Of a stretch of DNA of 24,932 nt, positions 3,647 through 20,518 are shown piece after piece. The DNA is from a virus. Below the pieces are notes generated by a model. That model was not told the DNA's origin. It saw nothing but the letters and a program-made list of their open reading frames with translations, and made no database searches. How positions within the stretch are numbered: position 1 is the first letter of the stretch; each line of letters begins with the position of its first letter. A program made the position numbers and the translations under genes. The DNA lies in the IMG/VR virus record IMGVR_UViG_3300033995_001967, positions 1-24,932 of that record. One strand, written 5' to 3'.

Positions 3647-5866
3647 ATGGCCGCTAAAAGAACTCCGGGCCCACGGACGCTTTCGCCTGAAATCCCGGTC
3701 GTCAGTTACCCGACGCCCAATCTTGAGGACCTGTTGGTCATTGAGGACGTAGACGCCCGGATTCCCGGTTACGCGCCCCTTGAATACGGGGATCTTCACC
3801 CGGACCAGGGCCTATACCCCGGCCTAAAACTTGTGTTTCAGTCTCCCCTGGACCAGGGCGCAAACCACATGTGGGTGCGGCGGGTCTACTCCAAAGACCG
3901 TCAAGACGAAGACGCCTACAACTTTGCCATCAAGTACTCGGACAACAACCCCGCGTACCCCATCTACGTCCGAACCTATACGATTTTACGCTCCGAGTAC
4001 GTGCCACTTGCCTCGGGGTCCCGCGATCCGGTTTTTGCTTCGGCTTACCTGATCTCCGAAGAGGTCGTTCGGTTCAAAGGTGACGCTGAAAACGACGCCC
4101 TGGATTCTTTGTACCTCAAAGTCTTGAGGGTGTTTGAGACGTTGCCGGGACCGCTTGTCAAACGCTACGAGACCAACGAAGCGGGCCAGACCGTCGAGGT
4201 AACCTCGCAGCGGAAGCTGTTCGGACCCAACTACGTTCCCCCTACGGCGAGCGCGGTCCTTTCTTTTGCTTCGGAGGTCGCCGAAGAAAACGTGATCACC
4301 GACAACGTGCGGAAGCTGCCTGAAGTGTTCGACGGCAAAGTTTTCTCCACCGAAGTGCCCGACCCGGCCCCGGTCAAGTTTCGCGTCGCGGTGCCCGCCA
4401 TCACGGAGGAGGAGACGGTAAAAGGAGAAGCTGAACGCCCGGCGCTTGCTACCGGGGAGCTTTCCAAATCAGAGCAGCAGGTTACCAAGTTTATCAAGCG
4501 CAAGCAGAAGACTTCCCGATCCACGTTGGGCCTGCCCAAGACTTTAAGTCAGACCTTGACCACTCGGGAAAAACAAAAGGCGACGGTTACCGAGACGCTT
4601 CAAGTTGGCAACACCTCCGAGTCCCCCAGCGCAACCGTTGATATCGAGAGCGAAGCGTTGGGCGACGGCACTTTTGTTGTGCGCAAAACGCAGGTGCCAA
4701 AAGTTTTTAACGCTAAATCGGAGGTGGTAACTAAGCCGGACGTTCTGCCCGAGAGATTCACCGCCAAAATACCGACGATAACACGTACTGAGACCAAAGA
4801 AGGGTTCGACGTAGACCCGAAGCTGGACACTGACACGTACCGTTCGGAACAGGAAAGGGTGAGTGAATTTGAAATCCGCAGCTCGGACGTTACGCGGAAC
4901 GACTCCCTTACTCCCCAGCTTCAGGGCAGAGAGTTGGAAGAGGCGTACAATGTCCAGGTACCCTACACCGAAAGGATTTCTAGCAGCCCCTTTGCTACAG
5001 GCTCTTCCGAGGTGGAGCCCCTTAGCGCTGACAAATATTTGATTAGGACTTACGATCCCAATCAGTTAAGCACGGTGCTAGGTGCGTTTGAAGTGTCCTT
5101 CCCGACCCGGATTTCGCTCGACCTCCCCCGCGTGCTGAAAAAGCTGGACGTCAAGTGGGGCAAAAAGCAGAGCTTTTCGGATTTTAACAACATCAACGCG
5201 ATGGTGGGCAGTTTCACCAGCCTCACCCAGGGAGACACCGGCTCTCTCGCGGTCAGTGGCACCCTGACCCCCGAGTTTAGTTTGGAGTATGAAGACGTGT
5301 GGGGCAGTAATCTGTCTGCTACACAGCAGATCTTTTTTCTTAAGGAGCCGACCAAGGACAAAATCCTCAGTAAACTAGGCTGCAAGGATTGGCCCGTGTT
5401 TAAGCCGCAAGGGGCGGTTATCACTGCTACGTCCAAGACTCTGACCAAGAAAGTCCAAGCCGCCGTTTCGAGGTATTTCGTGGGCGGGGATAGTGGTGCT
5501 GGGGGGACTTACTCCCAAAACGACACCATATCTGAGGAGAATGACGACAGCCCCGTCATTCTTAATATCCCCCCTTGTTTGCATCAGTCCCTTGCTATTA
5601 ACGAGAAGGAAAGCATCTCTCTGGAAAAAGACTTTGTTCTGAAGTATCCGGCCGTACCAACTTCTTTAGGGACTTTCCCGGCATTTGAAGTGAAGCGAAA
5701 ACTCTCTTTGAAGCTAGACAACCAAGTGGTCGATACTCTTCAGGCGACGATCCCCACGAAATTACCGACCAGCGGTAAATTTTTGACGGACTGTAGGGTC
5801 GAGTTCTTCAAGTATGGATGGTACGTCGTTCAAGCGACTGTTTTCGACGCCGCCGAATTAGCGTAA
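3647..5866 (+). CDS. 739-aa virion/appendage structural protein with internal repeats
   Basis: The start is fixed by GAGGAGGA at 3631-3638. The N-terminal ~200 residues form a separate domain (many Tyr/Pro/Asp, e.g. YAPLEYGDLHPDQG). Between about 220 and 500 a degenerate module repeats: LPEVFDGKVF...PVKFRVAVPAIT (223-253), VPKVFNAKSEV...PERFTAKIPTIT (350-379) and a weaker copy ending in FEVSFPTRISLDLP (481-494), separated by Ser/Thr/Glu-rich charged linkers. A C-terminal domain of ~230 residues follows. Repeated beta modules with charged spacers suggest an elongated tail appendage or head fibre. No enzyme motif was seen and the family was not recognised. Confidence 0.75.
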   Translation: MAAKRTPGPRTLSPEIPVVSYPTPNLEDLLVIEDVDARIPGYAPLEYGDLHPDQGLYPGLKLVFQSPLDQGANHMWVRRVYSKDRQDEDAYNFAIKYSDNNPAYPIYVRTYTILRSEYVPLASGSRDPVFASAYLISEEVVRFKGDAENDALDSLYLKVLRVFETLPGPLVKRYETNEAGQTVEVTSQRKLFGPNYVPPTASAVLSFASEVAEENVITDNVRKLPEVFDGKVFSTEVPDPAPVKFRVAVPAITEEETVKGEAERPALATGELSKSEQQVTKFIKRKQKTSRSTLGLPKTLSQTLTTREKQKATVTETLQVGNTSESPSATVDIESEALGDGTFVVRKTQVPKVFNAKSEVVTKPDVLPERFTAKIPTITRTETKEGFDVDPKLDTDTYRSEQERVSEFEIRSSDVTRNDSLTPQLQGRELEEAYNVQVPYTERISSSPFATGSSEVEPLSADKYLIRTYDPNQLSTVLGAFEVSFPTRISLDLPRVLKKLDVKWGKKQSFSDFNNINAMVGSFTSLTQGDTGSLAVSGTLTPEFSLEYEDVWGSNLSATQQIFFLKEPTKDKILSKLGCKDWPVFKPQGAVITATSKTLTKKVQAAVSRYFVGGDSGAGGTYSQNDTISEENDDSPVILNIPPCLHQSLAINEKESISLEKDFVLKYPAVPTSLGTFPAFEVKRKLSLKLDNQVVDTLQATIPTKLPTSGKFLTDCRVEFFKYGWYVVQATVFDAAELA

Positions 5867-5875
5867 CCCGCGACC

Positions 5876-6775
5876 ATGTCAAACACGCCCGGACTCGACG
5901 CGATGGCGGCTTCGCAGAATAAGCCTATTCAAGCGGACTCCTCTGGACTCGACGCGATGGCGGCTTCGCAGAATAAGCCTATTCAAGCGGACTCCTCTGG
6001 ACTCGACGCGATGAAGGCTTGGCAACAGTCCGGGACAACGCTCCTTGAAGACCAGGCGGCTAAAGAAAAAGCCAAAACCGCTTCGGCAGAAGCCCGCCGC
6101 GCGAACGATAAGGCTAAGGCAAAGGCTAACCGTGATTCTAGAAAACTGCAAAGGGGTCTCCGGCAAGCGGAGATTACCGGGAGGGTCAACCAATTTGTGC
6201 GGGATTGGGCCACTCAAAATGCGGCCCATGTCCGTGCGGTTAACTCGCGAGGTGAAACTGTAAACACCGCACAAATACCCAACGTCGGAACGCTAGATCT
6301 CGGGACCGGCAAAATAATCGACGGCCCTCTTTTCGACGCGCCCACTAGTTTCGCAAAGTCGGACTCAGCATCCTCCACAGCAGCCCTGTGCGTCGGGCTC
6401 GGGCTTTACACCAGAACGGTCGGCACGCCCCCGGTCGCCGAAGTGTGGGTTGGGGTGGGAACAGTAGCAGGCGATCTTCCTCCGGGCTTTGACCCAACTT
6501 TGGGGAAGCTCGTAGCCAGCGGAGGCACGGGGACTGTTTGGGCGGCGGTAACCATTAATGGGACCACAGGAGCTGTCGAGTCAGTTGCTGTAAACGGCGG
6601 GGGAGCAACGCCCAATGATACAAACACATCTTTCTACTACACGCTCGGCAGTTATGCGTATGTGAATGGATTCCCAACCATAGCCAACTACGGATGCGGA
6701 TCGCTTAGTGTTACTGTGTGTCGCAACTGGTTTACTGCCGAGCCCCCTTTTTTCGGCGTTACGATAACCAGATAG
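5876..6775 (+). CDS. Putative structural protein with N-terminal tandem repeats (299 aa)
   Basis: The N-terminus carries two exact 18-residue repeats (SGLDAMAASQNKPIQADS type) plus a third partial one. A Lys/Ala/Arg-rich helical region (about 55-105, AKEKAKTASAEARRANDKAK) is probably a coiled coil. The C-terminal ~190 residues are Gly/Thr/Val-rich and beta-like, ending in YGCGSLSVTVC and FFGVTITR. This anchor, coiled-coil, beta-domain plan resembles phage fibres or head decorations. It lies 9 nt after the 739-aa gene and 9 nt before the Cys-rich gene, so the three probably share a transcript. There is no Shine-Dalgarno. Its exact function is unknown. Confidence 0.75.
   Translation: MSNTPGLDAMAASQNKPIQADSSGLDAMAASQNKPIQADSSGLDAMKAWQQSGTTLLEDQAAKEKAKTASAEARRANDKAKAKANRDSRKLQRGLRQAEITGRVNQFVRDWATQNAAHVRAVNSRGETVNTAQIPNVGTLDLGTGKIIDGPLFDAPTSFAKSDSASSTAALCVGLGLYTRTVGTPPVAEVWVGVGTVAGDLPPGFDPTLGKLVASGGTGTVWAAVTINGTTGAVESVAVNGGGATPNDTNTSFYYTLGSYAYVNGFPTIANYGCGSLSVTVCRNWFTAEPPFFGVTITR
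5891..6013 (+). repeat. Perfect 54-bp direct tandem repeat (2 copies plus partial third)
   Basis: Copies at 5891-5944 and 5945-5998 are identical over all 54 bp, and a third partial copy (identical for 15 nt) starts at 5999. The unit is in frame (18 codons) at the N-terminus of the 299-aa protein, so copy-number changes would keep the frame. Confidence 0.95.
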
Positions 6776-6784
6776 TCCAAATAA

Positions 6785-8200
6785 ATGGCGATCAACCCTG
6801 CCTGCAATTGCTGTGAGGCCCCTCCAGTTGTGGCGGAGCCTAGTATTGAGTATATCTCCATATCTCAAGAATGCGCTAGGAATGTAAATTGTGGAGAACT
6901 TCCATGCTCGAGCGCAGAAGCTATTTATAACGAGGAGGGAGACTGCATTGTAGCAGCACAAATATGCTCGCCCAATTGGGAAAATTTAACTCCCGCTGAA
7001 AAATGTTTAGCACAAAAGTATTTAACGGTAACAGAAGTAGACAGAAGTGGGGGAGGCAATCATGGGCGTACCAAGATAAGACAATACGACATGGATGAAG
7101 AGGGAAACTGCACCCTGGACACAACCTGTTCGGGCACCAAAGTAACCACAACGGTAGAGACTGGAACGTATACCGGCCCAAGCGGCGGACCGTCACCGTC
7201 TTGTTCAAACTTAACTATTAATGGAGAATCGGAAGCAACAACAACGGTAACCGACACTTACGTTTCTCCGATAAATCCGAATGACGACTGCACTACCACC
7301 ACAGAGATAGATTGCAACGGATCTAGTAACTCTTTTATAAGCTGCCAGCCGCTTGGTGGTGGGGAAACATCTACCCAACAATGTAATTCAAACTTTGTAG
7401 AGGTTAACGGCGGGTGTCAATGGGACGGGGCTTATGATGGGAACGATGAATTTACCGACAACTGTCTAAATGCACCCGGCATTGGCGATCAATATGTTGA
7501 ACTGGTTTCAGAAACGACCGTCACACCCTCAAGCCTGTGCAGCATAACCACAACTTATACAAACCCTCTGTTAATCAGCAAGTGTACCCCAACGGAGTTT
7601 GCGGCGTACCCCGCGTTCATTACCCCAAGCTGCCAACAGTTGGAAGATGGTGAGTGGCCAACGCCAGAACTGCTTGTAGGGCAAAGTTACGGAGAGGAAG
7701 CGTACAGTTATGTAAATTTGCGAAAACCGGATGTCACCAGCACGCAAAAAATAAAGTACCGAGTAGTGCACGGTCCCACCCCAGGTTGTTATCTGAAAGT
7801 TTTTTTCCGCGCAAAAAGTCAGCCATGGAAGTACGAAGATTGCGAAACGGGATTTGCTGGTGACCCCCCGCGAACACCGGCTCTTACGGTGGACTGTGTT
7901 AATCCGAATTCTTATTGTACCTCGCGCTTTTCTACTGCGGGGGTACCCACATATAGCGAACTTCCGCCTTATGAGTGGAACGGCACCGGGGACCCCTGTT
8001 TTACCGATAACCAAGAACTCTTCTCCGCCTGCGAGAATAAGATTTACGGCGCGGCTTCGGATGAGTTAAGCGCCGCTCCCATGACCTCTGTGACACTTGA
8101 ATACAAGTACAGTTACGTGAAAAACTACGAGCCAAACTGGCCTGACGCCACCGGCAGTCAGGGGTGTAAACCCAACGGTTACCCCACCACAACTTGCTAA
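6785..8200 (+). CDS. Cysteine-rich 471-aa protein, probably extracellular/virion
   Basis: It contains 29 cysteines in 471 residues, spread from NPACNCCEAPP to the last residue (PTTTC). Thr/Ser/Asn-rich stretches (TTTVETGTYTGPSGG, TTTVTDTYVSP) surround short Cys spacers. No CxxC zinc-knuckle pattern dominates, so disulphides or a knotted fold look more likely than zinc. There is no signal peptide or membrane segment. Base composition is visibly more AT-rich and codon use differs from the flanking genes. It sits between the repeat protein and a zinc-ribbon protein in the late cluster, so it is probably a virion surface or tail appendage protein. The family was not recognised. The start has no Shine-Dalgarno. 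Confidence 0.75.
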   Translation: MAINPACNCCEAPPVVAEPSIEYISISQECARNVNCGELPCSSAEAIYNEEGDCIVAAQICSPNWENLTPAEKCLAQKYLTVTEVDRSGGGNHGRTKIRQYDMDEEGNCTLDTTCSGTKVTTTVETGTYTGPSGGPSPSCSNLTINGESEATTTVTDTYVSPINPNDDCTTTTEIDCNGSSNSFISCQPLGGGETSTQQCNSNFVEVNGGCQWDGAYDGNDEFTDNCLNAPGIGDQYVELVSETTVTPSSLCSITTTYTNPLLISKCTPTEFAAYPAFITPSCQQLEDGEWPTPELLVGQSYGEEAYSYVNLRKPDVTSTQKIKYRVVHGPTPGCYLKVFFRAKSQPWKYEDCETGFAGDPPRTPALTVDCVNPNSYCTSRFSTAGVPTYSELPPYEWNGTGDPCFTDNQELFSACENKIYGAASDELSAAPMTSVTLEYKYSYVKNYEPNWPDATGSQGCKPNGYPTTTC

Positions 8201-8203
8201 ACC

Positions 8204-8596
8204 ATGCTTCTGGAACTTCCACCCCCTATCGTCAATTCGCGAAAACAAACATGCCGCTGTGATTGCAAGATCGCTTTTGAGAGCCCATGCGCGTCCTGCC
8301 CCAAAAACCGTTGGGGCCCGCAGTTGTGCGAGCCCGCACTGGATGAGGGGGTAGAGCAACAGTTTCCCGATATTGGGTCTATGGCTACCAGTGCAATTTC
8401 TGCTGTCGGGTCGGAGATGAAAGCCATGCTTCAAAAGCAACCGGCCCTCAACGCCGAAGAGATACGGCAGCGATATACCCTCTGCGAAGGTTGCGAGTTT
8501 TTCCATGCGGCGTCAAAACGCTGTAAAAAATGCGGGTGCTTTATGAAATGGAAAACCGCTTGGCGTAGCCAAAAGTGCCCTGTCGGCAAGTGGTAG
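8204..8596 (+). CDS. Two-module zinc-ribbon phage protein (130 aa)
   Basis: There are two cysteine clusters. The N-terminal one has Cys17, 19, 21, 29, 32 and 42 (TCRCDCKIAF, CASCPKNRWGPQLC). The C-terminal one has Cys94, 97, 107, 110, 112 and 125 (CEGCEFF, CKKCGCFMKWKT, KCPVGKW). The C-terminal module matches a small zinc-ribbon frequent in phage genomes (C-x-x-C, CxxCGCFMxxK, CPxGKW) found beside structural genes. A linker with a mildly hydrophobic helix (about 59-77) joins them. ATG 8204 lies 3 nt after the Cys-rich gene's stop. Zinc binding is probable; the biological role is unknown. Confidence 0.8.
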   Translation: MLLELPPPIVNSRKQTCRCDCKIAFESPCASCPKNRWGPQLCEPALDEGVEQQFPDIGSMATSAISAVGSEMKAMLQKQPALNAEEIRQRYTLCEGCEFFHAASKRCKKCGCFMKWKTAWRSQKCPVGKW

Positions 8597-8706: not shown

Positions 8707-9693
8707 ATGCCTCTAACTCTATCCCAAGCTAGACAAAAGTTGTTCCGTTACGTCGGCCCCACGCCCGACGACGGGGCCGTCACGGACCGCATCAACTCGG
8801 CCCTGGAGCGGATCTACAACTCCGGCAAGTGGAAGGGCCTTCTGGCCTCGGTGTCCTTTAACCAATCGTCTGCCTCGGCTAACTGGTGGGCCCCCTCAAT
8901 TCCGCGGACCCTGACTCTTCCGCGCCGGTTTCAAGCTGTTTTGGGGGTCACTTTCGACCACTACCCCCGTCTGACCTACCCCCGGTGGCAGGAATATATC
9001 GCCGGGGGGAGCGGGGGCATCTCTGCGGGCTTGGGTATGCAAAAGATCGTGGATGCCGGGGACGGATTTGTCACTTGGTCGGACCCCACAACTTCTTTTT
9101 TCCCCCGCTTCGAGATCACGGATTTGAACGACGTGGGACAAACTGTCCACATTTCCGGTTTGGACTCGGCCGGGAACCAAATCTTCGACTCCTCTGGCAA
9201 CAACGGGATCTTGGTCGTTCTGACCCAGGCGGGGGTAACGCTAACCACTCAGTTCGCCAAGGTGGTTTCAATTCGCAAGCCCATCACGGAGGGTCCGGTC
9301 AACTTGTTGGCGGTAAACCCGACCGCAGCCGGACAGGTCAACCAAATCGCGTCTTACGAGCCGACGGAAACGGTGCCGAGCTACAAGCGCTACAAGCTGG
9401 CCTCTGCCGACTACACCCACACGATCGACTGTCTCTGCAAACGTCGGTTTGTGCCGCTCGTCAACGGCCCGGACGACGACGCCGCGCTTATCCCGGACAA
9501 CGAGGGCGCGGTTAAGATGACCCTCATGGCTCTCCAGTACGAGGACAAGAACGACCTCGAACGCGCTGAGACATATTTTCAGAAAGCCATCCAGCTTTTG
9601 AACTCCGAACTCAAAGAAGACATGGGAGCCCCCATCGTCACTTTGCAAATGAACCCGATCGCCGCAGCAATGCGGATACCCGCCCGGTACTAA
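8707..9693 (+). CDS. Head-tail adaptor/tail tubular A-like structural protein (328 aa)
   Basis: Begins MPLTLSQARQKLFRYVG...DRINSALERIYNSGKWKG, an N-terminal helical pair with Trp like that of connector proteins in podoviruses. A beta-rich middle follows (about 70-230; RRFQAVLGVTFDHYPRLTYP). The C-terminal helical part reads MALQYEDKNDLERAETYFQK and QLLNSELKEDMG, similar to the C-terminal helices of T7 gp11-like adaptors. The following genes are ejection-type proteins, which fits the podovirus order adaptor then internal proteins. Assignment is by overall pattern and position; it could be another neck protein. There is no Shine-Dalgarno; the 110-bp gap precedes it. Confidence 0.6.
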   Translation: MPLTLSQARQKLFRYVGPTPDDGAVTDRINSALERIYNSGKWKGLLASVSFNQSSASANWWAPSIPRTLTLPRRFQAVLGVTFDHYPRLTYPRWQEYIAGGSGGISAGLGMQKIVDAGDGFVTWSDPTTSFFPRFEITDLNDVGQTVHISGLDSAGNQIFDSSGNNGILVVLTQAGVTLTTQFAKVVSIRKPITEGPVNLLAVNPTAAGQVNQIASYEPTETVPSYKRYKLASADYTHTIDCLCKRRFVPLVNGPDDDAALIPDNEGAVKMTLMALQYEDKNDLERAETYFQKAIQLLNSELKEDMGAPIVTLQMNPIAAAMRIPARY

Positions 9694-10827: not shown

Positions 10828-12822
10828 ATGGCCAAGAAGAAGCTCACCCCCGAAGAGGAAGCGGCTAAAGCTGCTAAAGCGGCTGCAAAGCCAAAGCCGA
10901 CGAAACCTTCGGCCCAAGAAATGTCGGGTGGCGCAGTCAAGCCCGCTCCGAAAGCGGACGCCGTGGCTAAAGGTGCGGCGGCTATGGACAACTTTGTGAC
11001 GGGAACCAAAGCTCCCGATCAGACCGCCGCGCAGGCCAAAGAAGCATTCGCTTCGGCGAGGGAACGCCGTTTCACCATGCCCGGTGGTCCGGAAGTTCCA
11101 GCGGCCCCGCCCGCTGCCGCGCCTGCCGCCAACGCTGTAGAATCAAATACCGCCAAGATGTCGCAGGCAGCGGAAGCCGCGAAAGGTCCCGGTGTGTTTC
11201 GACGTTTCGTCGCTCCCTCTATTCTTCCGCTTGCGGCGGCTGGGGCGAACGAGTTGATCCCCCGCGCAGATGATTCCTCAAATGTCGGCTACGATCTCAA
11301 CACCGCACGCGACGCTGCGATGGGCGCGATAAATGACGGATCTATTGCAGCTATCGCTAAAAATGCACTTAAGCTCAGGAACCCCTATTTGGTGGGCGGG
11401 GCCGCTTTGTTGGGGGGCGGTAGGATGTTGTACAATCGGTTGACTGACTACAATGCAGCCAATCCGGAAGCCGCCAATCGGGACTACGAGTTGCCGAAGG
11501 CCGACGTAAATTTCTTTTCGCAGGCGCCCGCCGCTTTGTCTGACGCCGGGCGGGTCGCGTCCCAAATTCTGCGGGGCATTGGTGACGGGGTCTCCTACGT
11601 AAACACGTACAATCCCACCTGGAAAGCGGCCCAAATGGTGGGCGAGGGAGCAAAAGCCGTCGGCAACTACTTTACCCCACCTTCCATGAAGGGCGGGGCA
11701 CCAGAAACGCCAGTTGCTCCCCAAACAGAGGGCCCCGAATCAACGTCGGGTCCGTTGCCCGAAAACACCCAGCGATTGCCGGACGGGCAGTTCCAGCGGA
11801 CTTTGTACGGGCCAGACGGGACTCTTCGAGGAACCGCCACAGGTTCTATGGAACAAATGGACCGGGTTCCGCGGACCAAGGCCCAAGACGCGCAAAACGC
11901 GGCACGGCAACAAGTGATGGAGAACATCCGACGCCGCGAAGAGGAAGAGCGCGTGGCAAAAGAAAAAGAGTTTCGTGAGCGCACTTCCCCCGAGGCCGCG
12001 GAAAACTTCTTTGCCGGGGTTCGCGCCAAGCGAGAACTGGAGAGGGCCGCTAATCGAGGGGCAAGTAATGACCCGATCCGCACTGGGGATAGAGTTCAAG
12101 ATCTTTTGGGGGCCGTGTCTGAGAGCGCCCGCACCACGGGGCAATCCCCCGAACAAGTACTGTCCGAAATGGGTGGCGACAACCGGATCGTTCGGATCGC
12201 CCGAGGCGTTCTTTCAGAACAAGCGCAGACGGGTAGGCAACTAAGTGCGGCGGAGATCGCCGCGCGGGCGCTCAGTGGTAGCCCGAGTTCGACCATCAAC
12301 CCGTTTCAAGAGGCCTATGAAAGGGACGCGGCGTCAAAACTCGGAGCGGCGTTGCAGGACGAGAACCGGGGAGAGACCTTGGCGTTGCAAACAGAGAACG
12401 CCGAGCAGGCGGCTCAGGCCAGGGCGATTGACGATCAGCGGGCCCAAGAGGCACTTAAACTCCAGCAAGAGAACGCGCAAGCTCGCCAAGAGACCGACGC
12501 GGTTAAACTGATCTTGCAGGCGGAAAGAGATCTCAAGCGTCTGGTCGAGCGGTCTACCAGCCCAGACGCCGCCGCTAACCCTGCGGCGGGGGCTGCGCTC
12601 CAACGTGAAATTGCGCAAAGCCGCGCGGTTCTAGATGCGTTGAACGCTAGGGCGGCAGCTTTGGGTGTGGACATGGGAGACTCCGGCCAGGAGTCGGCAA
12701 CAGCCCCAACCCCGACCCCATCTGAGCCGCAAAGTTTTAACAGTATAGAGGAGGCGGACGCGGCTAATTTACCCCCAGGAACTTTGATAACCGTGGCCGG
12801 TAGGCCCGCTCGAATTGACTAG
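10828..12822 (+). CDS. Ala-rich putative internal/ejection protein with coiled coil (664 aa)
   Basis: The N-terminal 50 residues are Lys/Ala/Glu-rich (LTPEEEAAKAAKAAAKPKP). Residues ~125-290 hold hydrophobic Gly/Ala segments (ILPLAAAGANELIP, YLVGGAALLGGGRMLYN). A charged helix lies at ~355-400 and a long Gln/Ala/Glu coiled coil at ~512-574. The C-terminal ~28 residues (SIEEADAANLPPGTLITVAG) form a small motif (EADAAxLPxGTxIxVxGR) that I know from the ends of several phage virion proteins. It stands between the zipper protein and the giant ejection protein with 4 nt to the latter, suggesting co-expression and co-packaging. Function is inferred from composition and context. Confidence 0.65.
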   Translation: MAKKKLTPEEEAAKAAKAAAKPKPTKPSAQEMSGGAVKPAPKADAVAKGAAAMDNFVTGTKAPDQTAAQAKEAFASARERRFTMPGGPEVPAAPPAAAPAANAVESNTAKMSQAAEAAKGPGVFRRFVAPSILPLAAAGANELIPRADDSSNVGYDLNTARDAAMGAINDGSIAAIAKNALKLRNPYLVGGAALLGGGRMLYNRLTDYNAANPEAANRDYELPKADVNFFSQAPAALSDAGRVASQILRGIGDGVSYVNTYNPTWKAAQMVGEGAKAVGNYFTPPSMKGGAPETPVAPQTEGPESTSGPLPENTQRLPDGQFQRTLYGPDGTLRGTATGSMEQMDRVPRTKAQDAQNAARQQVMENIRRREEEERVAKEKEFRERTSPEAAENFFAGVRAKRELERAANRGASNDPIRTGDRVQDLLGAVSESARTTGQSPEQVLSEMGGDNRIVRIARGVLSEQAQTGRQLSAAEIAARALSGSPSSTINPFQEAYERDAASKLGAALQDENRGETLALQTENAEQAAQARAIDDQRAQEALKLQQENAQARQETDAVKLILQAERDLKRLVERSTSPDAAANPAAGAALQREIAQSRAVLDALNARAAALGVDMGDSGQESATAPTPTPSEPQSFNSIEEADAANLPPGTLITVAGRPARID

Positions 12823-12826
12823 GCTC

Positions 12827-15800
12827 ATGCCCGTTACCTTTCTAGACGAAGAGCAAAACGCAAATCCGACAAATCGCCCTGCGGGCAAGAGTCGGGTTAC
12901 GTTCTTGGACGAGGAGCCGGACGAGAAGCCCAGCTCGATCGGCGCGTTTGCGCGGGAAGCCGCTCGAAGTGTTGCTCCCGGCCTGGCGGGCACTTTGGCG
13001 GGCACGGCGGCGGCATCGCTGGCTGTGGCCAAGTCATCGCCGAGAGTTGCTATGGTTGCGGGGCCCATCGCGGCTATCACGGGCGGCATGGCGGCAGGTA
13101 TGGGCACTCGCGCTGCTCAAGACGCCGTAGCCGACAAGGTGGCCCCCGAGTCGATTATGGGCACCAAATCGGCTCAGGAGGACTACGAAGCCCGCCCTAT
13201 TTCTTCTTCGGTGGGCTCTCTTCTTGCGGCAGGAAAGCCAAGCATCTCAATGGTAAAAGGCACTTTGAGGGGTTTAGGAACGGCAGAAGGCCGGGCGGGC
13301 CTCACTCAAGTTGCCAAGTCTATGGTCAACAAAGACGCACGGACTGCCCTATCCCAAGCGGCCGAGGAAGTGGATTCCGTTACAGGACAGATGACCCCGA
13401 AGGCCGTGAGCACGCGTCAGTCCATGAACGACTTTGGAAACGTGATCGGTTCGGCGGCGGGCTTTGGAACCCAGGCCGGAATGGAAATAGCGCAGGGCCA
13501 AGATCCGCTCACAGCTACTGCTATGGGATTGGCGGGCACGGCAATTAGACCGTGGGTCGGGCCAGGCGGCGTATTTCTCAACGGGCAAAAAAGTCGGACA
13601 CCTTCTCTGCTACAAGATCCTGAGGTTCCGGTGGCCCCCGAAGATCTTCCTGCCGACACCCCGCCCACGGCCGAAGAGCAACAAACGATTGACGACGCTG
13701 TTCAAGGCAAAGTCCGCTCCGTCGAAGCCACCGAGAAAGCCGCCGCAGTCGCGGAGGCCACGGGCATCTTGCCACAAACCGCAGCGGCTCTTCGGCAACA
13801 GTCCCAACAAATTGCCAGGAAACCGGCGACCCCGCCCATTGATCCCGCGATTGAGGTAGCACCGGCACCGGCACCCGCGGGGCCTAAAATAACCGCCGCC
13901 GCCCAAGCTCTTGCCGACAAGTTTGGCGTAGACATTTCACAGGTTAAACCCAACGCGCAGAACAACGTAACTCAACAAGAAGTTAATAGGTGGAGAAAGG
14001 AGAATGTCTCGCAGGCACAGCCAGCCGCCAAGAACGACAACTTGGACCAGCGCAACTGGATGCTGGGCCGCTCGAAAGAGATCGCTCGCGAGAAAGACCA
14101 GCCGTTCACCAACCTTAGCGAGTGGGCCGCAGCTAACCCCGAAGACTTCAATCAGATGGCCGTCGAATGGCGGGCCATCAAAGAGGGAACTGACGTCGAA
14201 GCTCCCGCGCCCAAAGCTCCCGCACCCAAAGCCACCCTGGCGGCTTCAGAAACCGCGGCGCCCGCAGCGCGTCCCGTTCGTTCTGGCGACCCAACCCGAG
14301 TTCCTGACGAATTGTTGTTGGCGGGGGTTGAGCAGGCCAAGACCAAAGAAGAATTTGTAACGTGGGCCCGAGCGAATGGGTACGGAGAAACCATTCGCCC
14401 AGCGTCTGGAGGACAAATTGGGGCGGAAGCGTATTGGTCTATTAATCGGAGAACGGCTGCACCAGAAGCGGCGGCTCCAATTGTTGCCCCCAGAGCCGTC
14501 GCACCGGAAGTTGTCCCACCCGCACCGGAAGTCGCACCGGAAGCTCCCGCACCAGAAGTTCCTCTGGTCGCACCTGAAGTCGCACCGGAAGCTCCCGCAC
14601 CAGAAGTTATTGCCCCAGAAGTTGAGAGACCTGCGGTGTTGGAAGGAGAACCGACGCCGCTCGATGATCGGCCTCCGACCTCCGAAGAGGTGGACACAAG
14701 TTTAGAGGTGTTCCCGATGCAAGGAGACCGGCAATTTCCAGGTGTAGAGGTTCAACCGATTTCCAACGTGCCGATCGGCCTTGCCCTGACGCCCTACAAG
14801 CAGCGCCGTTTTTCGACTTCAGAAGAAGCGGAAAGCTCTCTAAAGGATTTCGACCGCGTCCAAGTAAAAGACTACTTCGACCGCGTTCATGAGTTGCTCG
14901 GGGCGGGAGTGGCCGATTCTGCCATGGCCCGCGCCAACACCCGCATCTCACTCTCCGACGCGTTGGTAAACCTACCGGATGGATTTGCCCCGCAGACTTT
15001 GTCGCGTTACAGCGGCGCATCGTCGATGAACTGGATGAGGACGATAGAGACGTTAAAGGCCCTAAAATCCAACAGCCCGACGGAAATTTTTAGACAGCGC
15101 TCCGGAGGGCCAGCAGTACTTTTAGAGATTACCACCGATAACCCAAAATTTGGCTACATCAACCTCAGGCTGCGCGAAGCGGGCATAAAGGGGGCGACCT
15201 TGATCCGGAACCCAGAAACTAATGGCGTTCAGGTCTACGTATTGGTAAAAAATCCTTCGCAGATTTCAACAGTCCGAACCGCACTGAAGCGGTTTTCATA
15301 CGAAAACAATTATGGAAAAATCAAATCCTATCGAGGCGACGCCGAATTCGTCGGAGCCGACAGAGAACAAGCAACCGCCTTCCTCCGGGAATCCCTGGGA
15401 CAATATCGAAGTGGAGGAGATGGAGATCCCACCGGAGGGCCCGATCGGGTTCGCGTTGCCCGCGAGCTTTGGGGACTCGCCCGAGAATCCGGAATAGATT
15501 TAGGCCCGCCTCCGCCCGAATACGTAGAGGCGCAGAGCAGGGCGACCAGCGAGTCGCAGTACGAAAAGGACTTGGCTACGCAGCAAGCTGCGGACGCCAA
15601 GATCCCCCCAGACAAAGAAGCGAAATACGCGGACTTACTGACCCGCGCCAGTTCCTTTTTAGATGAGGCCCTCGGTCTGCCCCGGATGCAGCTCATTGAG
15701 TTGGGCAGTTCTGGAGATCAGTCCGATGACGTTGTTTTCCAAAATTACGTAAAGGCTCTGCGCAAGAAGTTTGACGAGGGCGCGTTGGTTCCCGGCCTTG

Positions 15801-18800
15801 TTGATCGCCGAGACCTGCCGTCAGGCGTCTCGTCTACCGCCCGCGCAGGGGTAAAGTTTACCCAAAAAGCGCCGTTCGGCAGTTTTGCGGGGTACTACAA
15901 GTCCTTTGAAACTTTAAAGAACATCGTATTCGGCAAACTGCGAGAGCAACTGGGGAAACGTGTGGACGAAGCAAAACTTCCCGCACGCAAAACTAAAGAG
16001 AACCTCGCTAAAATTGAAGCTCTGGACAAAAAGATTGCGGCCCTGCGCAACACCAAAAAGAAACTCAGCCAGAGCCAAAAGAAAGAGTTAAAAAGTCTTG
16101 AGGAGCAAAAAGCCGAAGCACTGTTTCAAAAGAATCCGTGGTCCATGAGCAACGCGGACTACGAAGGGTATGTTGAAAATACTCTGAGGAACGCAATCAA
16201 AGGCGTAAAATTAGTTAAGACGAAAGGTGAGGCGGAAGGATTAAAAGTTGTTGAGGATACCGCTCCAGGGCCGGGGGACGACAAAGAACCTGTCTCACTG
16301 ATTGACAAACTGGCCGCAGAAGACGGAGAAGACGTCGCCGAGTCCCTTTCTCCTGAAGACAAACGAGCGGCGTACGGGGCAATTCGTGACCCCGAAACCC
16401 GCGTAGCCGACAAGGTGGCTTTGCTGAAAAAGTTGAGCGAGCGGGGCGTATTATCCAAACGAGAGCTGAAGTCTCTGGAACCGGACGTTGCGCGTATAAA
16501 CAAAGCTCTCCTTAAGCGAGAGAACGCCCCAAGAAACCCACTGCTCGACGGAATGACGCGGGTTTCTCTCCGCAAACAAGGTCTTTCCATCGCTGAAAAC
16601 TATACGCTGGAACAAATTCTTCGAGGCGAGCATCGCAATGCCGACGGCGGAGTCTTGTTGTCGCCCACGGGTGAAGGCTTGTCAGTCGGCCGCGACGCTC
16701 CCCCACAAGTGCTAGAGGAATTTACCGCACGAACTTACCTCAAGCAGTTGTTGGATTCCAAGAGTATCAGCAGCGAGGACTCGGCTCTGGTGCGTAAGCT
16801 CGTTAATGAGGCTAACTTGGATAATATACCGCTACGCGTTTATGACTATCTCGAAGGAGCTTACGGCAGATATGATCGCGGCACGGGCGAAGTGGCCGTC
16901 AATTTCGAGACCTCGTCTTCTGACCGAAATGTGGAAACGAGTTTGCACGAAGTCGGACACGCTTTGCTTGGATACTTCCTGAACCCGCGCAACGCCGCTT
17001 CGCTTAACGTCCGACAGAAGAAGCTGGTTGGCGATCTCAACAACTTCTTTAAGCAGACTACCGAGGCCGCGATTCGGGACGGGAAGTTTACCCAAGAGCA
17101 ACTCGATGCGGTGCGCAGCATGCAGGGGCGGGGGGATGTCAGACTCTCTTCCACCAGCGACCGGACTGCATATCGCTACAGCAACGTGGACGAGTGGACC
17201 GCCGCGATGATGTCGAATCCCGAGTTCCGAGACTACATGAAGACTCTCCGGACGCGGGACACCGTCACAGGGAAAATGCGCCAGGCCTGGGAGACTTTCA
17301 AAGACCTCGTTGCTCGACTCTTCGGGGTAGACCGCTCGGTTTACCGCAAGTCGTTCGACAAAATCATGGCGTTGACGGTTGACCCCGAGGCGGGCCGATT
17401 GCCGGGAGAGACTGATACCGGGAGAGCCCTAGACTTGTCCCCCATAGACGAAAGCTCTCCCCGCTTTACGTCCAAAGTTAGCACGGCTGAAGAGAATCAA
17501 CGGCTGGCCCCCGACGACAAGGTCTCCTTTAAGTCACAAGAGGTTCCTCAAGCTCGGCTTAAAGCCATGGAGTATAAGTCAAATGGGGGCACATTTGAAG
17601 CTCTGATGGATGGCACTGCGCCTCTGCTCGGCCCCGAAAAACTGCAAGCAGCGGCTCTTTTTCGCGACGAAGCGCAAACAGCAAAGGCCATTTTGGCCAA
17701 AAAGAGCAACCCCACGGCCAGCGAGATCCGCGCCCGGCAAGAGGCCGAAGACCGCGAAATCAAGGCCAACCAATTGTTGGTAGGAATGAAAAGTGCCGCC
17801 GGGCAAGTAATGGGCCACGGTCAACATTTAAAGAATGCTGTGGGGCTTAGTATCGACGACGTCATCGAGACTTTGAACGGCCGGACCTTGGAGCAGATGG
17901 CCGAAGGCAAAATTGATCTCCAGCGCATGATGTCCGGGATTCGGGACATCAAGGCCAAAGCGGCCGATATCACCATGTCGGCCATGAGCATAGAGCTAGA
18001 AAGGGTCGGTATCACCCGCGCCGAGGACCTCAAGATGTTGCAGGACACGCTGGCCCACACGAGCACGACCTTCAAAGACTTGCTAAACTCCTTGGCATCC
18101 CTGATGCCGGGCGGGAACCCCGTCCAGACTCGGGCCATGGCCGAGCGTATCTATCGACTTTACGCAACGGCGGGCAACTCAGTGTCCAAGAGAGAGTTGC
18201 CGACCATCGTGCGCGACACTTACAACGGCGAGTCCACTATTCCGGCAGGAGACAAGTTCCTCAATAAGTTGAACGAGTTCATCAAGATCGGGAAGTACAG
18301 CGAGGATGAAATCAACGCTACCCTTCTCGAATCTCTGGGTTTGAGTGGCTACGACAAGGCCTTCATCGCTGGAATCCGTAAGGATTTGGACAAAGTCGCC
18401 GCGATGCCCGAGGGCGATATGCGCAACGCCGCTTCGGTTGAGGTTCTGCAAAAAGTGCGTACTAAACTGTACAACAACGTGCTCAAGACCCCTCTTTTCT
18501 TTGGCGAAGATTCCAAGGCGGCGCGCAGTCACGTCATGGACATGGTCACTTCCGCGTGGCAGTCCGGCGTATTGAGTGGTCCGCCCACCGGCTTTGTCAA
18601 CTTATTGGCCTCCCACGCCAGCATCTGGACCGAGAGCTTGATGGAGTCTTTCGGCTACGCGCTGAAAACCGGAGATCCTCGATACGTGGGAGATGTTTTC
18701 AGCGGGTTCTTATCCGCGCTTTCAGGCAACAAAGCAACCGGTCGCGCTTCGGCCGCTACGGCGGAAGCGTATGCAGCCATGCTCGGGCGGGGCACTAAGT

Positions 18801-20518
18801 ACCGGAATGCGATGAGGGAAGAGATGCCGCATCTGGAAAATGTGGACACCACAGGCACCAACATTGCGGTCAAGATGATCGCGGGATACGCAAAAAATCT
18901 ACGTTGGGTCGGACGAACGATGACGGCGGTGGACGCCATCAACATGTCTTTGGCAGACGAAGCAAAGCAACGTCTGATCACCCGCTACTTCCTTTCCGAG
19001 ACCAAGGGGCACCGCGCTTCCGAAGTCACGGACCTGATGCACAAACTTTTTGACCCCGACATCGTGACTACTACCGACGCTCGCCGCCAAGCAGAAGCGG
19101 ACGTTAAAACGTACATGTCTGACAAAAGCGGTCGCGAGCAGCAGCGATGGATCACCCGCCGCACCCTTGAAATCCTAACCCAGAAACGGGAGGAACTGAT
19201 GCCTGGGGTCACGGAAGCCGGAAGAGGGGCCGCGGAGCGTTTCACCTACAACGAAACGGCCAAGGGAATGATGGGCAAATTCTTTGTTAACCTGTCAGCT
19301 CAGATCAACGAAAACATAAAGGCTGGGCGGTTTATCCTCTCCTTCATGAATACGTTGGCCAACATCGTGAATCAGACTTTGGACTACACTCCGTACGGTT
19401 TGCTCCGCGCCAAAAACTGGAGCGTAGGCCAGAGGACGATCGAGGCGGACAACAAGTATAGGCCGAGGCGCTACACTGAGGGTTCCCCGGAACAAATGGC
19501 CCAGATCGCTCGTGCCAATGTTGGCACGGTAGCGATCATGGCGCTCGGGTATTTGGCCTACAAGGGCTACGAGTCCGAGCAAAATGGGGAGATCCCGTAC
19601 TTCACAGTAACCGGAGCAGGGCCGAAAAATCCTTACGATCGTCAGCAACTTGTTGACTCCGGCGGTTGGAAACCCAACTCGGTCAAAATCGGGGATACTT
19701 GGTACCGCTACATAGACTTCCCGATCTTGGGGCCAACCCTTGGCGGGGTCGGCACCATGATCGACGCCGCGCGGTACAAGAAAGACGAGCAGTCTGACTC
19801 AGAAGTGGTCATGAACGCCGCGCTGGCGGCGGCGACTACCGTCATGGACAAGCAATTGCTCCAAGGCGTGAACAATTTCATGCAGATGCTACGGGGCGGA
19901 CAGCCAGGGCAGCAGGTTTTCAGCGCCAAGCGTTTGATCAGCGGTACGGTCGGCGGGTTTACCAACCCGTCCATGGCCCGCTGGATGCGCAACACGTTCT
20001 ACACGGACTCGGAGGGCATGGTTGATCGCTTGGACCAAAGCACGACTGCGGGATGGGTCGCCTCGATGATCCCGTTTTCAATCGGCTACAGCACGGCTGC
20101 GCTCAACACGTTGGGAGAGCCCATTCAGCAGCCTTGGTATTCGGCCACAACGTGGCGGTTTGCCGAGCTTAACAAAGCGAAGCCGCATCCGATCATTACC
20201 CCTCTGGTCAAGGCCGGATTGATGCTCCCGAACCCCAGCCCCGCGACTTCTTTTGAACTGCTGGACCCCGAGGAGGGACAGATCATCGTCACGAAACTGG
20301 GCAAATACCCCAAGGCTATGCGCCGGTTCGTCGAACTTCGTGGTCAGGCTTTGAAGCGGATACTGACCCCCGAGTATATCGCCAGTCTGCAAGCGTCAGC
20401 ACGGCAAAATCAAGAGGCAACCCAAGATCACCTTGACGGCGACATCAATAGTGCGGCTAGAGACTATGCGGTGGCCCAATTGCAACAGGAGATCCGCGAG
20501 GGCAAACTAAAAATCTAG
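12827..20518 (+). CDS. Giant polyvalent ejection-type protein with zincin motif (2563 aa)
   Basis: ATG 12827 is preferred over TTG 12815, which would overlap the previous stop. Order of parts: VTFLDEE duplicated at 3-9 and 24-30; a Gly/Ala hydrophobic region at ~45-105; a Pro/Ala linker, then an E3-binding-like motif at ~357-388 (ALADKFGVDISQV, VTQQEV); a PEVAPEAPAPEV-type Pro/Ala repeat at ~545-605; a mixed globular region at ~640-860; a Lys-rich coiled coil at ~1050-1100; a possible sigma-like region at ~970-1235; the zinc peptidase motif HEVGH at 1374-1378 with Glu1456 (VDEWTAAMMSNPEF) as candidate third ligand. A helical C-terminal half includes GFVNLLASH, FMNTLANIVN and a membrane-like segment at ~2229-2248. 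Large phage proteins of this polyvalent type are carried in the virion and enter the host with DNA. Ejection and proteolysis are inferred, not shown. Confidence 0.8.
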   Translation: MPVTFLDEEQNANPTNRPAGKSRVTFLDEEPDEKPSSIGAFAREAARSVAPGLAGTLAGTAAASLAVAKSSPRVAMVAGPIAAITGGMAAGMGTRAAQDAVADKVAPESIMGTKSAQEDYEARPISSSVGSLLAAGKPSISMVKGTLRGLGTAEGRAGLTQVAKSMVNKDARTALSQAAEEVDSVTGQMTPKAVSTRQSMNDFGNVIGSAAGFGTQAGMEIAQGQDPLTATAMGLAGTAIRPWVGPGGVFLNGQKSRTPSLLQDPEVPVAPEDLPADTPPTAEEQQTIDDAVQGKVRSVEATEKAAAVAEATGILPQTAAALRQQSQQIARKPATPPIDPAIEVAPAPAPAGPKITAAAQALADKFGVDISQVKPNAQNNVTQQEVNRWRKENVSQAQPAAKNDNLDQRNWMLGRSKEIAREKDQPFTNLSEWAAANPEDFNQMAVEWRAIKEGTDVEAPAPKAPAPKATLAASETAAPAARPVRSGDPTRVPDELLLAGVEQAKTKEEFVTWARANGYGETIRPASGGQIGAEAYWSINRRTAAPEAAAPIVAPRAVAPEVVPPAPEVAPEAPAPEVPLVAPEVAPEAPAPEVIAPEVERPAVLEGEPTPLDDRPPTSEEVDTSLEVFPMQGDRQFPGVEVQPISNVPIGLALTPYKQRRFSTSEEAESSLKDFDRVQVKDYFDRVHELLGAGVADSAMARANTRISLSDALVNLPDGFAPQTLSRYSGASSMNWMRTIETLKALKSNSPTEIFRQRSGGPAVLLEITTDNPKFGYINLRLREAGIKGATLIRNPETNGVQVYVLVKNPSQISTVRTALKRFSYENNYGKIKSYRGDAEFVGADREQATAFLRESLGQYRSGGDGDPTGGPDRVRVARELWGLARESGIDLGPPPPEYVEAQSRATSESQYEKDLATQQAADAKIPPDKEAKYADLLTRASSFLDEALGLPRMQLIELGSSGDQSDDVVFQNYVKALRKKFDEGALVPGLVDRRDLPSGVSSTARAGVKFTQKAPFGSFAGYYKSFETLKNIVFGKLREQLGKRVDEAKLPARKTKENLAKIEALDKKIAALRNTKKKLSQSQKKELKSLEEQKAEALFQKNPWSMSNADYEGYVENTLRNAIKGVKLVKTKGEAEGLKVVEDTAPGPGDDKEPVSLIDKLAAEDGEDVAESLSPEDKRAAYGAIRDPETRVADKVALLKKLSERGVLSKRELKSLEPDVARINKALLKRENAPRNPLLDGMTRVSLRKQGLSIAENYTLEQILRGEHRNADGGVLLSPTGEGLSVGRDAPPQVLEEFTARTYLKQLLDSKSISSEDSALVRKLVNEANLDNIPLRVYDYLEGAYGRYDRGTGEVAVNFETSSSDRNVETSLHEVGHALLGYFLNPRNAASLNVRQKKLVGDLNNFFKQTTEAAIRDGKFTQEQLDAVRSMQGRGDVRLSSTSDRTAYRYSNVDEWTAAMMSNPEFRDYMKTLRTRDTVTGKMRQAWETFKDLVARLFGVDRSVYRKSFDKIMALTVDPEAGRLPGETDTGRALDLSPIDESSPRFTSKVSTAEENQRLAPDDKVSFKSQEVPQARLKAMEYKSNGGTFEALMDGTAPLLGPEKLQAAALFRDEAQTAKAILAKKSNPTASEIRARQEAEDREIKANQLLVGMKSAAGQVMGHGQHLKNAVGLSIDDVIETLNGRTLEQMAEGKIDLQRMMSGIRDIKAKAADITMSAMSIELERVGITRAEDLKMLQDTLAHTSTTFKDLLNSLASLMPGGNPVQTRAMAERIYRLYATAGNSVSKRELPTIVRDTYNGESTIPAGDKFLNKLNEFIKIGKYSEDEINATLLESLGLSGYDKAFIAGIRKDLDKVAAMPEGDMRNAASVEVLQKVRTKLYNNVLKTPLFFGEDSKAARSHVMDMVTSAWQSGVLSGPPTGFVNLLASHASIWTESLMESFGYALKTGDPRYVGDVFSGFLSALSGNKATGRASAATAEAYAAMLGRGTKYRNAMREEMPHLENVDTTGTNIAVKMIAGYAKNLRWVGRTMTAVDAINMSLADEAKQRLITRYFLSETKGHRASEVTDLMHKLFDPDIVTTTDARRQAEADVKTYMSDKSGREQQRWITRRTLEILTQKREELMPGVTEAGRGAAERFTYNETAKGMMGKFFVNLSAQINENIKAGRFILSFMNTLANIVNQTLDYTPYGLLRAKNWSVGQRTIEADNKYRPRRYTEGSPEQMAQIARANVGTVAIMALGYLAYKGYESEQNGEIPYFTVTGAGPKNPYDRQQLVDSGGWKPNSVKIGDTWYRYIDFPILGPTLGGVGTMIDAARYKKDEQSDSEVVMNAALAAATTVMDKQLLQGVNNFMQMLRGGQPGQQVFSAKRLISGTVGGFTNPSMARWMRNTFYTDSEGMVDRLDQSTTAGWVASMIPFSIGYSTAALNTLGEPIQQPWYSATTWRFAELNKAKPHPIITPLVKAGLMLPNPSPATSFELLDPEEGQIIVTKLGKYPKAMRRFVELRGQALKRILTPEYIASLQASARQNQEATQDHLDGDINSAARDYAVAQLQQEIREGKLKI
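14480..14640 (+). repeat. Degenerate Pro/Ala/Glu-coding repeat in the giant gene
   Basis: Short units reading [V/A]-A-P-E-V and A-P-E-A-P-A-P-E-V recur, with near-identical DNA at 14526-14562 and 14574-14610 (gaagtcgcaccggaagctcc type). They encode an extended flexible linker at about residues 550-605. Confidence 0.8.

Follow-up and report, generated by a model that had tools for sequence, protein, structure and literature searches.

Sequence comparison places the protein encoded at positions 6785-8200 of a metagenomic viral DNA in a recurring family of cysteine-rich phage proteins, whose members keep their richness in cysteine and whose genes are accompanied by two partner genes, are linked to tail genes and, in this virus, appear to have been swapped between lineages as part of a larger unit. 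The window, meaning the whole stretch of DNA analysed, is the entire IMG/VR record of 24,932 bases and is probably a genome fragment. Tail modules and disulphide-bearing virion proteins are of a kind already known; the family with its two partner genes is newly defined here, and its recurrence makes the tail modules of unannotated metagenomic phages recognisable. The overall reading takes the protein for a tail adsorption appendage whose stabilising disulphides form once the cell has lysed, and is judged to be about as probable as its opposite. The window features referred to below are the following:

3647..5866, + strand: conserved upstream protein, 739 aa (conservation among relatives)
5876..6775, + strand: knob protein, the upstream partner, 299 aa, 3 Cys (C-terminal profile; alignment)
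6785..8200, + strand: cysteine-rich protein gene, 471 aa, 29 Cys (ORF list; 22 further distinct family members)
6803..6814, + strand: N-terminal CxCC motif, residues 7-10 (C7 and C9 in 23/23 members, C10 in 20/23)
6818..6877, + strand: predicted N-terminal strand region, residues 12-31 (models; aligned with beta-sandwich structures jointly with the C-terminal part)
6878..7732, + strand: variable Cys-rich, Thr-rich insert, about residues 32-316 (mostly low model confidence)
7733..8143, + strand: predicted C-terminal beta-sandwich part, about residues 317-453 (invariant CYLKV with C335, Y396, C405; models)
8204..8596, + strand: small zinc-ribbon-like protein, the downstream partner, 130 aa, 12 Cys (phrog_13558, E 2e-13; DUF6171 below cut-off)
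8707..9693, + strand: conserved neighbour, 328 aa, the query used to fetch relatives (sequence matches in relatives)
12815..20518, + strand: internal virion (ejection) protein, 2567 aa (phrog_6651, E 1.2e-14)

The cysteine-rich protein and its family

The product of 6785-8200 contains 29 cysteines in 471 residues (6.16%), as initially annotated. The 12 other listed ORFs of the window have 0-1.9% cysteine, except for that at 8204-8596 (12 Cys in 130 aa, 9.2%), and when the window and the loci of the 22 relatives are listed mechanically for other ORFs with 150 aa or more, antisense ones included, one of 206 reaches 6.16% and 17 reach 3%. The gene had also been described as more AT-rich than its neighbours, which holds for most of them: its GC is 0.490 and its GC3 0.477, while the other listed ORFs lie at 0.53-0.62 and 0.57-0.75, respectively, with one exception. 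The cut, fibre-like ORF at 3-1325 is equally low (GC 0.499, GC3 0.478), and none of the nine other long ORFs of the window has a lower GC3 than the cysteine-rich gene. A composition artefact was considered as the source of the AT-richness; low GC3 is not constant within the family, being below the locus median in 16 of the 23 loci (window included) and not below it in seven. AT-richness is common in the family, yet it is no fixed property.

The protein is rich in Thr, Ser, Gly and Asn, has only 5.1% K+R and contains two His in 471 aa. Its single CxxC spans residues 7-10, within the CxCC motif, and each of the remaining 26 cysteines stands at least five residues after the preceding one, a spacing unlike that of zinc ribbons; two paired CxxC/CxxH knuckles are not present in a protein with one CxxC and two His. 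The total number of cysteines is odd. Measured by hydropathy, a clear N-terminal hydrophobic stretch is found in none of the 23 family members, the maximum 12-residue mean over the first 35 residues being 1.71 among all of them and 1.02 in the window protein, which agrees with the absence of a signal peptide noted at the outset. A reading as a lipoprotein or secreted protein was dropped on account of this N-terminus. No match was obtained for the window protein in Pfam and PHROGs at E <= 0.1 or in NCBIfam at E <= 1, so that the family was rightly called unknown; neither the family nor its cysteine density was found described in Pfam, PHROG, NCBIfam or the open-licence PMC papers searched.

Used alone as a query, the window protein retrieved no relative among viral contigs or phage records. 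The 328-aa neighbour protein (8707-9693) matched eight contigs, and the slot before the corresponding gene in L002 and L009 encodes cysteine-rich proteins (29 and 16 Cys, respectively) which have a C-terminal domain in common with the window protein. A profile of this domain matched 11 loci, two of them with a protein identical to another's (L013 and L019 were dropped, their proteins being identical to those of L012 and L018), and a profile built from two members of long-tailed phages added 11 further new contigs. Contigs that were the same as another or the window itself (L001, L021-L043, L046, L053, L057-L059) were left out of the counts, and L004 does not cover the slot of the gene. The metagenomic search suggested in the initial annotation thus recovered, in IMG/VR, 22 further distinct members, which makes 23 distinct proteins with that of the window. 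The family is surely larger than this since such scans miss much, as seen with the 739-aa neighbour protein, whose scan found nothing although relatives exist. Re-scans matched only contigs already known, bacterial and archaeal genomes scanned with the 8707 gene and with the family domain gave no relative, and none was found in phage records searched with the 8707 protein, the L014 and L017 domains and the L052 knob.

Homologues lacking the cysteines, which had been named as evidence against the initial annotation, were not seen: all 22 further members are cysteine-rich, and across the family there are 10-31 cysteines per protein (3.0-6.7%), with 0-3 CxxC in the members other than that of the window. 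The invariant alignment columns, in window numbering, are C7, C9, CYLKV 335-339, Y396, C405, S443 and P450; the window protein accordingly carries the N-terminal C-x-C, the CYLKV, the Y-x-W...C and the S...P of the C-terminal domain that are characteristic of the family. Every scan pattern included either C335 or the N-terminal CxCC (C7/C9/C10; C[DN]CC in one), so the invariance of these positions is partly built in, and that of the other cysteines is not. Close pairs hold most cysteine sites in common, the window protein sharing 27 of its 29 cysteines with L056 (46.9% identity, binomial P 1.6e-7), 23 with L055 (47.4%, P 4e-4) and 22 with L048 (37.3%, P 3e-5), where gaps take the place of both C353 and C378. 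Between L002 and L015 (50.2% identity) cysteine is the best conserved of all residues (0.89), and the unmatched ones are 294/302 and 392/395 in L002 and 47 and 194 in L015. In the distant pair L011 (17 Cys) and L014 (20 Cys) eight cysteine sites are common, and the conservation of His (0.50) exceeds that of Cys (0.43). The alignments show that cysteine richness is maintained and that single cysteine sites drift.

The only match of the 23 members in PHROGs and Pfam is a TPM domain (PF04536, best E 3e-13), which lies inside the cysteine-rich region of the members at L016:6435-8729 and L018:6480-8738, two contigs related to each other. Absence of the protein, also named beforehand as a point against it, does occur: the complete records of the related contigs L003, L005, L006, L007 and L008 were searched and yielded no family member, and the gene is therefore not universal. 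In two of them the same slot encodes short cysteine-rich proteins (L003:9115-9519, 134 aa, 8 Cys; L005:9117-9596, 159 aa, 12 Cys), which are treated as replacements because the family profile detected no homology in them.

AlphaFold gave a poor model for the window protein (mean pLDDT 47.9), with blocks 321-350, 381-400 and 421-460 at 73-88 and residues 111-271 below 50. That of the 300-aa L010 member, computed from 21 sequences, has a mean pLDDT of 70.9; its strands 16-27, 161-194, 211-226 and 262-272 are mostly above 80, its ten-residue blocks in 31-160 all at or below 71, and 67-107 below 50. Structure alignments take in the N-terminal strand together with the C-terminal region and involve a wide range of unrelated beta-sandwich proteins, with 5.6 and 5.2 as the best Z scores; Foldseek returned no match at E <= 0.001, the PDB and BFVD fold searches gave weak generic matches only, from which no fold can be discounted, and a three-member family profile had no sequence relative among solved chains. 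All that is taken from these models is a probable beta-sandwich core into which, behind its first strand, the cysteine-rich region would be inserted. Phage virion proteins bear domains of Ig-like and other beta-sandwich type, and the predicted core on a putative surface protein resembles them; unlike these domains, to which it has no detectable sequence relation and only these weak fold matches, it carries a large cysteine-rich insert.

Gene trio and tail context

The run of + strand genes in the window begins with the cut fibre-like ORF and a lysis-type region (weak endolysin match, E 0.035), continues with the 739-aa, 299-aa and cysteine-rich proteins, and is completed by the 130-aa cysteine-rich protein, the 328-aa protein, two Cys-free proteins and the 2567-aa protein, which has weak matches in several phage records. 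It is from this gene context that we infer the placement in a virion cluster proposed at the beginning. The 328-aa protein, for which no PHROG and no credible PDB match was found, is presumably tail-adaptor-like. In the family at large a knob gene precedes the cysteine-rich gene and a zinc-ribbon-like gene follows it, and the window shows the same order. A knob gene is located upstream in 22 of the 23 loci (L054 lacks it), immediately so save in L048, L055 and L056, where it is one gene further; since its profile was built from 19 family-positive loci, these last three are the only independent matches. The zinc-type gene, with a profile built from 15 loci, follows the cysteine-rich gene with a score of more than 60 bits in 20 of the 23 loci; L017 is weak, and in L045 and L047 the downstream gene resembles, by eye, the N-terminal part of the other members. 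The zinc-ribbon part is also present without the cysteine-rich gene, in L003-L007, whereas the knob profile has no match in the six loci without the family (L003-L008). With L004 left out, the knob accompanies the family in 22 of 23 loci and is found in 0 of 5 without it (P 6e-5, the loci not being independent).

The name knob is used here for the upstream protein on account of its conserved C-terminal domain. The window knob protein ends in CGS-x5-CRNWF followed by about 12 residues, and its profile has no credible relative among solved structures. The first two conserved cysteines of the knob are both present in 15 of 19 aligned sequences, including L009 with its Cys one alignment column off, and both absent in the other 4; in sequences which are related rather than independent, this paired presence and absence would be the pattern of a disulphide. 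The last cysteine is invariant (18/18 aligned).

A tape-measure gene lies upstream of the trio in six long-tailed contigs (L020, L044, L049, L050, L051, L052), separated from the knob gene by 1-3 ORFs, and that of L020 also matches Pfam TMP_3. L047 has a gene of tape-measure-like size with no match, and L017 a virion structural gene (phrog_1731). The trio lies between the 739-type and 8707-type proteins in the window, L016 and L018. A short way downstream, L020 has a large gene whose product contains a carbohydrate-binding domain and matches tail fibres. The trio is thus found in short-tailed phages, the type of the window, as well as in long-tailed ones; its use with two or more types of tail speaks for an adsorption part and not for a tail-tube or ejection part.

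Several other genes of these neighbourhoods were recorded. DUF3431 genes occur just upstream of the knob gene (L002:5828-6427 and L055:3067-4382, E 4e-9 to 2e-13), with BLAST relatives also in L048 and L006. The structural cluster of L006 includes sugar genes between its zinc-type and 8707-type genes (L006:7592-9892), namely a glycosyltransferase (PF13439, E 4e-15) and a dTDP-sugar epimerase (PF00908, E 3e-39). Fibre-like or unassigned genes near the module (L018:60-2534, L044:10229-11227, L050:9726-10445, L052:9633-10349) have, by eye, signal-peptide-like starts, which are odd in a phage assembled in the cytoplasm.

Exchange between lineages

The genes around the cysteine-rich gene differ in their nearest relatives. 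The 8707-9693 protein is nearest to L002 (79%) and L009 (76%, a half-length gene at the contig end), the home lineage. Residues 1-165 of the knob protein likewise have good matches in this lineage alone, namely L009 (40% over 123 aa, E 3e-25) and L002 (54% over 39 aa), with L055 at E 0.08; the whole knob protein, too, has its best bit score with L009 (218), a point against an exchange. Residues 166-299 are nearest to L012 (66%), L056 (64%) and L055 (61%), followed by L009 (55%) and L002 (44%). The cysteine-rich protein is nearest to L056 (42%) and L055 (39%) and has no match to L002 and L009 at 1e-4, that of L002 being itself nearest to L015 (43%); the zinc gene is nearest to L055 and L056 (55%), with L002 at 34% and L009 at 31%. 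In the available stretches of L055 and L056, both fragments, none of the 739-aa, 328-aa and internal virion proteins has a match (the L056 stretch begins inside the knob gene), and two small lysis-region genes are common to them and the window at 52-62%.

Since the N-terminal half of the knob differs in nearest lineage from its distal half, the cysteine-rich gene and the zinc gene, the sequences indicate that the window knob protein is a hybrid, with an N-terminal half from the home lineage and a C-terminal half from another, and that distal knob, cysteine-rich protein and zinc-type protein make up the swapped unit, whose junction falls within the knob gene. The separate origin that had been proposed from composition is thereby supported, and it extends to both neighbours; the lower GC of the gene is compatible with exchange, although for seven of the 23 genes GC3 does not fall below the median of the locus. 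Tail-fibre tips get swapped while the anchor stays, and the junction within the knob resembles such an exchange.

Gene distances are correlated between cysteine-rich and zinc genes (r 0.51, 20 loci), knob and zinc genes (0.71, 19 loci) and cysteine-rich and knob genes (0.33, 22 loci), all with permutation P < 0.001, the last correlation being modest. In the small set of seven loci with a 739-type gene picked, the values are 0.87 for cysteine-rich and knob genes, 0.43 for cysteine-rich and 739-type genes and 0.47 for knob and 739-type genes; selection of the 739-type gene relied on a text filter, which yielded one in only eight of the 23 loci.

Proposed role and competing explanations

As to function, we infer a tail-associated structural protein, the middle one of a three-gene adsorption module, most likely placed on or beside the distal knob of the upstream-encoded protein, whose N-terminal half would anchor to the tail. 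The large, fast-changing cysteine-rich insert would be displayed at the surface and touch the host cell or its matrix. The protein is made without a signal peptide and its thiols are therefore presumably reduced in the cytoplasm; the lack of an N-terminal hydrophobic stretch implies oxidation after lysis or by some route not seen here, and after lysis the thiols would oxidise, the resulting disulphides stiffening the insert. By way of the N-terminal CxCC and of the invariant knob cysteine they perhaps also cross-link the appendage, and the zinc-ribbon-like downstream protein is likely an assembly helper. Cysteines present or absent in pairs, the Thr/Ser/Gly/Asn-rich composition and the low K+R would suit an extracellular disulphide protein. 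The disulphide-stabilised appendage of the initial annotation is favored by homologues that keep their cysteines, by the conserved tail module and by the pairing of some cysteines; the five related contigs without the gene count against it.

A known case of this kind is Agrobacterium phage Milano, a tailed phage whose virion contains disulphides, including those joining receptor-binding proteins to the baseplate (PMC10491603, PMC10811340). The view of the protein as exceptional for a phage has accordingly to be tempered, given that the family recurs and that the Milano virion is disulphide-linked. The Milano proteins to which it may be likened, as structural proteins, are the collar gp13, the linking proteins, the sheath, the baseplate and the fibres; in that system cysteines form disulphides in the mature particle, with inter-chain bonds via N-terminal cysteines, whereas those of the window protein are predicted from sequence. 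The predicted structural proteins of Milano average 2.4% cysteine in the same description, as opposed to one protein with 6.2% in a cluster most of which has almost none. By analogy, the protein could be a structural stapler and not a receptor binder, its disulphides cross-linking tail or collar subunits for robustness. Milano, where structural cysteines are mostly in disulphides, linking proteins use N-terminal cysteines and reduction lowers stability (PMC10491603, PMC10811340), would fit this, as would the invariance of C7, C9 and the last knob cysteine (18/18) and the odd cysteine count of the window protein. It is nevertheless considered rather unlikely: the other proteins of the cluster, the zinc-type one apart, have 0-3 cysteines each and offer few cross-link partners, and a fast-diverging insert which moves with the distal knob better suits a part in contact with the host.

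Metal binding, with zinc, iron or an iron-sulphur cluster bound by the cysteines in the manner of the lambda gpL tail tip, would be in keeping with the zinc-ribbon-like neighbour gene and with C7, C9, C335 and C405, which could make one site. Lambda gpL and RcGTA gp13 are described as carrying iron-sulphur clusters in tail tips (PMC10721106), and they are cysteine-containing tail-tip proteins whose gene lies slightly behind the tape measure, much as the cysteine-rich gene of the long-tailed relatives is about the third to fifth after it. A difference is seen in the cysteines, four in the gpL cluster (PMC10721106) and 10-31 scattered ones here, far above the need of one cluster, and, unlike gpL and gp13, the family also occurs in short-tailed phages. 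C335 and C405 are the only invariant cysteines of the C-terminal domain, the part in which gpL-type proteins have four conserved ones. The cysteine spacing and the scarcity of His (a single CxxC at 7-10 and two His in 471 aa, with 0-3 CxxC in other members), as well as the gain or loss of some cysteines in pairs, make metal loading less likely than a disulphide appendage and, on its own terms, unlikely.

Tail-fibre chaperones are often encoded next to fibres, and a cytoplasmic helper co-expressed with the tail genes, acting in assembly, folding or host takeover and absent from the virion, would likewise have no signal peptide, as hydropathy indicates here. A Thr/Ser/Gly/Asn-rich protein with 5.1% K+R and predicted beta structure does not look like one, dense cysteines would be disadvantageous under the reducing conditions of the cytoplasm, and the variable region takes up whole domains (the TPM domain of L016 and L018), all of which renders this very unlikely.

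The adsorption appendage may be extended to a self-contained, horizontally exchanged cassette common to phages with short and with long tails. There the disulphide-rich protein would become covalently attached to a knob fibre only after lysis, a dedicated zinc-ribbon helper would keep it reduced until then, and a hypervariable, disulphide-scaffolded insert would bind the host, altogether a redox-armed host-binding device; in this full form it is quite unlikely. If the cysteines are disulphides, the family would add a further example, of quite another sort, of a virion part built with disulphides, and disulphide formation without secretion in phages, together with reduction-triggered events at the host surface, would become testable.

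Repeats were also noted at the N-termini of virion proteins. In the window, that of the knob contains a 54-base tandem repeat in 2.5 copies (5891-6024), and the 2567-aa protein has TFLDEE twice near its start (12833-12919); in L004, L005, L007 and L008 a short peptide is repeated, by eye, 2-3 times at such N-termini. The repeated peptides are possibly a common docking signal.
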